From Saccharomonospora marina XMU15 (GTDB taxonomy: Bacteria; Actinomycetota; Actinomycetes; Mycobacteriales; Pseudonocardiaceae): a DNA stretch of 64,000 bases. The notes beneath the pieces are model-generated. The model was not told where the DNA came from, searched no databases, and was given only the letters and a program-made list of their open reading frames with translations. A program made the position numbers and the translations under genes. The stretch spans positions 4,138,643 through 4,202,642 of the forward strand of contig NZ_CM001439.1 in assembly GCF_000244955.1 (NCBI RefSeq). The letters are read 5' to 3'. How positions within the stretch are numbered: the first letter of the stretch is position 1; every line of letters begins with the position of its first letter. Shown piece by piece: positions 43,879-45,424 of this stretch.

Positions 43879-44001
43879 GCGCGTTGAGCTGTTTCGTATT
43901 GCTGGAAGCAACGATGCGTTACAGACTGGCTTCAGCGTCATAAAGGTCAGCCGAACTCGCTCTCTTGTAGTGGGTCTGCTGTCCAGAGAGGGGTGAGACC
44001 G

Positions 44002-44517
44002 GTGGTGCAGACGATCACCGCGACGTACGCGCAGGACAAGGACGACTGGACGGTCACCGTCGCCGGCCTTGACAGGAAGCTCAGCGGCAAGGCGCCGGGC
44101 ATCATCGCCGCCCGGGACAGGGCCGACCAGCTCGTCGAGAAGCTGGTGCCGGAGGGCACCCGCCCGACCGTGGTGCACCTGCTCAACGGCAGCGCGCTGG
44201 AGTTCACCTCCGCCTACATCGCCGCTCGCCTCGCCAGGACGGAGCCGTCGGAGGAGGTCGAGGCCGAAGCCGACGGCCGACGCCGGCCCGTTGCGGAGAA
44301 CGCCACGCCTGCCCCGGCACCGAAGCAAGCGGAGCCCTCGCAGCCGCAGGCAGCGACGGCGCGAACGTCCTCGGGCCGTGCGGTGCCACGCAAGGAGTTG
44401 AGCAAGACCCCGTCCCCCGCCGGGCGCTCGGATGCGGGCACGGCACAGGCCAGGTACCCGTCGGCGGCCGGCGCCCGTAGCGGCGCGCCCGCCGGCTCGG
44501 CAGCAGTGACCGGCTGA
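44002..44517 (+). CDS. Hypothetical protein with Ala/Pro-rich tail
   Basis: A 171-aa protein of unknown family. The N-terminal about 75 residues are regular: TITATYAQDKDDWTVTVAG, then LDRKLSGKAPGIIAARDRADQLVEKLV and RPTVVHLLNG; the first part looks like a small alpha/beta domain of HicB-like shape, which is only a resemblance. The rest is disordered, rich in Ala, Pro and Arg. AGAGGGG at 43987-43993 supports the GTG at 44002 over the ORF start at 43993. It may share regulation with the TetR gene upstream (see the site at 43869). Confidence 0.65.
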   Translation: MVQTITATYAQDKDDWTVTVAGLDRKLSGKAPGIIAARDRADQLVEKLVPEGTRPTVVHLLNGSALEFTSAYIAARLARTEPSEEVEAEADGRRRPVAENATPAPAPKQAEPSQPQAATARTSSGRAVPRKELSKTPSPAGRSDAGTAQARYPSAAGARSGAPAGSAAVTG

Positions 44518-44572: not shown

Positions 44573-44594
44573 CACACTTTCGAGTTCCTGCGCG

Positions 44595-44930: not shown

Positions 44931-45004
44931 GGGCCCGTAGCCCAATTGGCAGAGGCACACGGTTTAGGTCCGTGCCAGTGTGGGTTCGAGTCCCACCGGG
45001 CCCA
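44931..45004 (+). tRNA. tRNA with Leu anticodon UAG but short (class I) variable loop
   Basis: The 74-base sequence folds into a full cloverleaf: acceptor arms GGGCCCG/CGGGCCC, D-arm GCCCAATTGGCAGAGGC, anticodon stem CACGG/CCGTG around TTTAGGT, a 5-base variable loop CCAGT, and T-arm GTGGG-TTCGAGT-CCCAC. Anticodon is UAG (reads CUA, Leu), with G37 and discriminator A73 as in tRNA-Leu, but tRNA-Leu normally has a long variable arm (class II). The 3-prime CCA is not encoded (CCG follows A73). It is either an atypical tRNA-Leu or a tRNA charged with another amino acid; aminoacylation cannot be told from sequence. Confidence 0.85.
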
Positions 45005-45424
45005 CCGATTCAGTCGTCGCGCGAACCACCCCGGTTCGGGGCCGGCTCCGCTGACCCCGAGCGCGCCCCGTAGTTGTCGCCGGGTTCTGGGGGATGGGGA
45101 AGACCGGGCGAGCCGGTCTCCGGCCGTTCTTCGCCAGCGTTGTCGCTGAAGTCACGCCCGGCTGGAACCTTTCAGGACCGCCCTCGACGAGCAGCTACCC
45201 CGACCGCCGTGCGCCAATCTCCATCCCTGCAACCGCCAGTGCCAGCCGGAGCACGGGTCAAGATCACCCACCACCCGTTGTAGGCACGCAGCGCGGTGCC
45301 GTTCCCGCTCGCACTGATCACCGTGTTGCGGCGGTTGGCAAGCGCGTCCAGGTCTGCTTCGAGGAGTTGGGAGGCGGGTAACCTGCGGGTTCCGTCATGA
45401 GCAACCGCCCGGTGCGCGGGCGCT
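45005..45424. other. 420-bp region downstream of tRNA, no functional gene seen
   Basis: On the minus strand a reading frame at about 45172-45405 encodes a protein-like stretch (LPASQLLEADLDALANRR, then NTVISASGNGTALRAYNGWWVILTRA) with no good start codon, so it looks like a truncated gene. Integration of elements beside tRNA genes often leaves such debris, but no att duplication of the tRNA end was found. Confidence 0.35.

Follow-up and report, generated by a model that had tools for sequence, protein, structure and literature searches.

In the relevant passages of two reviews, tRNA-Leu is described as a class II tRNA (PMC7609411, PMC4033280). For the E. coli tRNA, the available portion of a further source makes leucylation dependent on A73, the A15-U48 pair, G18G19, A20a and contacts of the D and T loops, while the sequence and folding of the long arm show no correlation with leucylation activity and variants without the arm stay active (PMC9976931). 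A leucine tRNA without a long variable arm is known from human mitochondria, where, according to the mitochondrial section of the same source, tRNA-Leu(UUR) takes its identity from A14 together with A73 (PMC9976931); unlike the bacterial tRNA described below it is organellar, and its short form probably arose independently. The anticodon UAG on a body other than that of a class II leucine tRNA also has a precedent, namely yeast mitochondrial tRNA-Thr(UAG), which in the passage concerned has an 8-nt anticodon loop and makes threonine of CUN codons (PMC7609411), in contrast to the 7-nt loop and apparently leucine-coding CUA of the present case. In actinobacteria, the available part of a report on a tRNA cluster of Mycobacterium mucogenicum mentions a Leu(UAG) whose variable loop is short (PMC6582537), there as an additional copy beside a normal class II gene, whereas the gene studied here is the sole chromosomal UAG gene and is accompanied by class I CAA and UAA genes. 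For M. tuberculosis, an excerpt gives tRNA-Leu-2, 3 and 5 as having long loops and hints that the other leucine tRNAs of this species lack them (PMC11541572). No description of class I leucine tRNAs as a standard set turned up in the open-licence literature, in which the M. mucogenicum passage was the only statement on a short-loop bacterial tRNA-Leu that we found; an earlier description may exist in subscription journals.

Here, we describe a class I tRNA-Leu(UAG) gene of Saccharomonospora marina XMU15, which is very probably the normal tRNA-Leu for CUA in this Pseudonocardiaceae genome and the only one there, a member of a class I Leu family (UAG, CAA and UAA) and an ordinary elongator tRNA charged by leucyl-tRNA synthetase (LeuRS). 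The window, that is, the whole 64-kb stretch of DNA that was analysed, contains a single tRNA called by ARAGORN, tRNA-Leu(UAG) at 44931-45006, and the Rfam tRNA model RF00005 scored 44931-45004 at 56.3 bits, where the cut-off is 29. ARAGORN, Rfam and direct reading agree on a class I gene whose positions 1-73 lie at 44931..45004 on the + strand, and so bear out the preliminary description of a complete cloverleaf with a UAG anticodon, G37, A73 and five variable bases. The next bases are CC (45005-45006) and then G, so that the 3' CCA is not fully encoded. We found neither a sigma-70-like promoter nor a terminator near the gene, which in a GC-rich genome says little.

By direct reading, the acceptor stem has 7 bp and the anticodon stem 5 bp. 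The D-arm (44940..44956, + strand, parser numbering) reads GCCC-AATTGGCAGA-GGC and contains A14, A15, G18G19 and a C13.A22 mismatch, the GCCC at positions 10-13 being the marker of the class I Leu form. It is followed on the same strand by the anticodon loop TTTAGGT with G37 (44963..44969; anticodon TAG at 44965-44967), by the variable loop CCAGT (44975..44979), whose last base is U48, the presumed partner of A15, and by the T-arm, the 3' acceptor strand and the discriminator A73 (44980..45004, from direct reading and the covariation set). With 5 nt, the variable loop falls short of the long arm (at least 10 nt) that marks bacterial class II tRNA-Leu, and of the 11-16 nt found in the class II Leu tRNAs of our read set. 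The tRNA shares with the E. coli-type class II tRNA-Leu a leucine anticodon, A73, A14, A15-U48, G18G19, a mismatch at 13.22 (read in the CAG tRNA of S. marina itself) and LeuRS as the presumed partner; it differs in the length of the variable loop and in the D-stem, which is GCCC/GGC here but mostly GCGG/CGC in the class II form.

The S. marina genome is assembled as one contig (C1) of 5.97 Mb that is 99.98% complete, and an RF00005 search of it yielded 46 tRNA genes, all of which were read and typed with ARAGORN. Five are leucine tRNAs, each in single copy: CAG (86 nt) and GAG (87 nt), the only class II members, and the class I tRNAs UAG, CAA (C1:3672430-3672503) and UAA (C1:4662364-4662437), which belong to a family with the common D-arm GCCC-AA..GGCAGA-GGC and a variable loop some 5 nt long. 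None of the 46 typed genes is a class II UAG, CAA or UAA tRNA, and the UAG tRNA is by anticodon the only one matched to CUA. Since a count of other tRNA-Leu(UAG) genes came to zero beyond the gene at 44931-45004, the earlier suggestion of an extra isoacceptor is wrong for this genome. An employment outside translation, be it by supplying an aminoacyl group to a biosynthetic enzyme or, as had also been proposed, as a regulatory RNA for the rare CUA codon, is exceedingly improbable: CUA is indeed rare in the genes tested (LeuRS, rpoC and the genes flanking the tRNA), but there is no other UAG anticodon in the genome to read it, the same body is also the bearer of the genome's only CAA and UAA anticodons, and of the four neighbouring proteins scanned with Pfam one has no match, the others being a PAS protein, a TetR regulator and an enolase-like protein.

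The arrangement seen in S. marina is shared by most of its family. The exact UAG pattern was matched by 123 of 140 Pseudonocardiaceae genomes, all 123 with a class I-type D-arm string. The other 17 were searched again with one mismatch allowed and their loci were read, by which a class was assigned in 11 of them, class I in nine and class II in two, with six standing outside the class counts. One genome has a real class II UAG tRNA in addition to its class I one; class II-like UAG strings in two others were discarded, being not called as tRNAs. Four of the nine class I tRNAs recovered by the second search have C33 for the near-universal U33 (loop CCTAGGA), and in one genus (g3) three other genomes show U33 strings in class I UAG. 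The class I UAG tRNA is standard in the Pseudonocardiaceae, though not universal. The caveat of the preliminary description, that a class I tRNA might turn out to be the standard UAG isoacceptor of the order, is thus correct at the level of the family and does not extend to the whole order, other families of which have class II UAG tRNAs.

The premise from which the gene had first seemed odd, namely that bacterial tRNA-Leu is always class II, is wrong, as 152 of the 394 genomes searched in the class contain a class I Leu pattern; a similar pattern was found in 32 of 198 genomes of a phylum sample, some of them common to the 394-genome set. For a finer view, 138 genomes of the class, drawn evenly, were searched with UAG, UAA and CAA patterns, most assignments being made by D-arm string alone, and genomes without a match may still have the tRNA with another D-arm. 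The UAG pattern was matched in 101 genomes, once in each, with 22 tRNAs of class I type and 79 of class II type (79 GACRC, 21 GAGGC and one GAGAC string, the last read and found to be class I). For UAA, 71 genomes matched, 58 with class I-type strings (52 GAGGC and six GAGAC, each of the latter shown by reading to be class I) and 13 with class II-type strings, and for CAA there were 50 (23 class I-type, 26 class II-type and one other). One CAA row from each of two genomes, dropped from the count, and a second UAA row from a third were not called as tRNAs. Full reads of 210 distinct Leu tRNAs show the GGC form of the D-arm in 167 of 171 class I and none of 39 class II tRNAs; D-arm type therefore stands well for variable-loop class, a link that is partly due to selection, since D-arm patterns served to locate most of the loci.

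A scan of named genomes returned at least 120 stretches, and among the matches listed ARAGORN called a class I UAG tRNA in 79 of 80. Beyond the Pseudonocardiaceae, the matches listed with such a tRNA include Nocardioides, Microbispora, Herbidospora, Catellatospora, Pilimelia and Ilumatobacteraceae MAGs, as well as two Corynebacterium and two Bacteroidota; in a third Bacteroidota locus among them (L251), ARAGORN called no Leu tRNA. Two Bacteroidota contigs carrying class I leucine tRNAs show them in sets. In Xanthocytophaga flavus, a tandem Leu set (L274:7298-7692) comprises CAG (75 nt), UAG (75 nt), CAA (85 nt) and UAA (84 nt), and in a Bacteroidetes MAG (L300:1866-2053) class I UAA and UAG tRNAs lie inside a tRNA array.

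Covariation was assessed in a set of 126 distinct class I tRNAs, all of which have UAG, having been chosen by anticodon. Pairing is nearly complete, in 881 of 882 cells of the acceptor stem, 630 of 630 of the anticodon stem and 626 of 630 of the T stem, and two-sided, compensatory changes occur at all seven acceptor pairs, all five anticodon-stem pairs and four of the five T-stem pairs. None of three D-stem pairs shows such a change, and C13.A22 (parser numbering) is present in 126/126 and A73 in 125/126; the invariance of the D-arm is partly a matter of how loci were selected, because the class I D-arm doubled as the search key for most of them. In the GAGAC tRNAs, by contrast, T-A replaces C-G at pair 11-24. 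Class I Leu tRNAs with a GTCC/GAC D-stem, compensatory at 11-24, were seen at nine loci from several other families. Near-complete pairing combined with compensatory changes is what selection on a working tRNA leaves behind, and the UAG tRNA is neither a chance match nor a pseudogene. The minimum-energy fold of the unmodified tRNA alone is not a cloverleaf, to which we give little weight because the covariation of the stems stands against that fold.

The UAG tRNA carries A73, A14, A15, U48 and G18G19, the identity elements of LeuRS according to the available portion of PMC9976931. These bases are widely kept, since A14 is found in 167, A15 in 170, U48 in 164 and A73 in 168 of 171 distinct class I Leu tRNAs, some of the misses being 1-nt parsing offsets, and all four are present in 39/39 distinct class II Leu tRNAs. 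The Leu-UAA tRNA of S. marina has all four on direct reading, the automatic test having missed them where the ARAGORN call begins one base early. The four bases alone are not unique to leucine, because they are also present in the tRNA-Lys(CUU) of this genome (C1:4102421-4102493), the only one of 40 own non-Leu tRNAs to have them.

One LeuRS, in two pieces of one frame, exceeds the family cut-off in the genome; seven further matches to the LeuRS profile, in other frames, fall below it and are presumably IleRS, ValRS and MetRS. Counted from its called start, the enzyme is 962 aa long; it contains editing and anticodon-binding domains, and its residues 230-961 align with full-length solved LeuRS chains, for example, 3zgz and 4aq7, which are E. 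coli LeuRS with tRNA. Given a single LeuRS and the retained identity elements, the same enzyme can plausibly charge both the class I and the class II leucine tRNAs. It would charge the UAG tRNA with leucine via A73, A14, A15-U48 and the corner formed by the D and T loops, all of them elements that bacterial LeuRS uses, the long arm not being among them, and the tRNA would then work as an ordinary elongator.

Whether CUA stands for leucine can be read, indirectly, from alignments. We counted columns that are conserved without the tested codons, at a threshold of at least 70% for LeuRS and rpoC and at least 80% for the genes flanking the tRNA, with codons pooled over genomes irrespective of the UAG form that each holds. 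LeuRS was searched in 30 genomes of the class, with frames chosen by blastp, and in the 29 loci counted the codons at Leu columns were CTA 14/14, TTA 4/4, TTG 81/89 and CTG 727/778. The corresponding values are CTA 7/7, TTA 2/2, TTG 15/16 and CTG 413/419 for genes beside the UAG tRNA in Pseudonocardiaceae, and CTA 8/10, TTG 104/107 and CTG 2125/2158 for rpoC in 30 genomes of the family. Both CTA misses of rpoC are at an Asp column, 132, beside a valine/TTG column; they were set aside because this adjoining column was read as the start codon, and the CTA cells of column 132 probably precede the GTG or TTG start of rpoC and would not be coding. In S. marina itself, CTA occurs at a single counted column of LeuRS, which is a Leu column, and at none of those of rpoC. 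As CUA, UUG and UUA sit at conserved Leu columns about as CUG does, the genetic code looks standard, with CUA read as leucine, and the column tests in LeuRS, rpoC and the flanking genes gave no support to a recoding of CUA, UUA or UUG.

These counts also bear on the earlier idea of a mischarged tRNA that reads CUA as another amino acid. Dual identity of this kind is exemplified by Streptomyces proline tRNAs with foreign anticodons. A class I body is unusual for leucine, and dual-identity tRNAs have been reported in bacteria in parts of the literature; a dual identity of the UAG tRNA, by which some other amino acid would be placed at CUA, is nevertheless highly improbable, as this is the only UAG tRNA in the genome, CUA is found at Leu columns and the identity elements of leucine are kept. 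Dual-identity tRNAs would be expected beside a normal isoacceptor and a duplicated synthetase, whereas here the UAG tRNA is alone and LeuRS single, the count of synthetases covering LeuRS only. The nearest relatives of the UAG tRNA in its own genome, compared outside the variable and anticodon loops, are likewise leucine tRNAs, namely Leu-CAA (0.774) and the class II Leu-CAG (0.758), followed by Leu-UAA (0.698) and, as the best non-Leu tRNA, Asn (0.694). The best reading of the UAG tRNA is that of a normally leucylated elongator.

An origin from a leucine tRNA by loss of the arm is favoured because the nearest own relatives are Leu-CAA and Leu-CAG; the UAG tRNA looks more like a leucine tRNA turned armless than like another isotype with a changed anticodon, although the margin is small beyond the first two. 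A tree of 53 Leu tRNAs over 53 columns, from which the anticodon loop, the variable loop except its last base and part of the D-stem were left out, left 33 of its 50 inner branches open and did not reject a single class I clade (p-AU 0.739), with two rows that look parser-shifted; so short an alignment would fit one origin as well as several. Nine neighbouring proteins of the window (the query at 44578 in a wrong frame) had no tblastn match at 1e-6 in 20 regions, 19 of them from other families, with class I and class II UAG genes mixed and flanks of at most about 3 kb, or in the loci L151-L180. This missing synteny fits a replacement of the gene rather than loss of the arm in place; rearrangement would look alike. 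Within the family, the gene at 43993-44517, encoding a 174-aa protein without a Pfam match, was matched in 40 of 48 examined loci with a class I UAG gene (that of S. marina included), compared with 0 of 15 such loci in the other families of the order.

Phages, too, carry class I Leu(UAG) tRNAs. A query for them matched 134 phage records, 112 of them Mycobacterium phages and others including Enterobacter and Pantoea phages. The three that were read, the Mycobacterium and Gordonia phages Finemlucis, BobsGarage and GodonK, have a tRNA that resembles that of S. marina in its class I body, UAG anticodon and D-arm, with 84-87% identity in the aligned part, but that sits in a phage tRNA array. Horizontal spread of class I Leu(UAG) is possible because phages carry it in such arrays. 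That a phage or mobile element brought in the S. marina gene itself, as a surplus to a normal class II set, would agree with these arrays and with the short-loop Leu(UAG) beside a normal one in the available account of the mycobacterial tRNA cluster (PMC6582537), yet it is very unlikely. The gene is solitary, being the only tRNA in the window and the sole UAG copy, its 76 bases are identical in five other Pseudonocardiaceae genomes, and the 43993-44517 neighbour accompanies it in the family as counted above; as an additional copy it is refuted for this genome, in which there is no class II UAG gene among the 46. The gene may still be of ancient phage origin.

For the class I UAG tRNA as a standard leucine isoacceptor, the course of events may be pictured as follows. 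Since LeuRS would not need the long arm, its loss could be borne by a lineage, and class I tRNAs would then have taken over some anticodons from their class II counterparts. A more specific cause can be imagined, if as an unlikely one, in which the short form lets leucine tRNAs escape from host or rival factors to which a class II arm is the recognition mark, tRNA-modifying toxins and tRNA nucleases for instance, and the class I set for CUA, UUA and UUG spread for this reason through actinobacteria and their phages; were this true, cells would be left with two structurally separate pools of leucine tRNAs that could be separately controlled.

In many actinobacteria a short-armed family of leucine tRNAs, so far little described, has replaced the long-armed form for some leucine codons. 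The view of the S. marina gene as an oddity stands in so far as a class I body with a leucine anticodon departs from the textbook, and falls in so far as it is ordinary in these bacteria, as the family count shows. Classifiers that use the long arm as a mark of leucine may flag or misjudge normal actinobacterial tRNAs. Class I and class II versions of one isoacceptor take each other's place here, a large natural data set with which it can be tested directly which parts of tRNA-Leu are needed by the synthetase, EF-Tu, modification enzymes and tRNA-targeting toxins.
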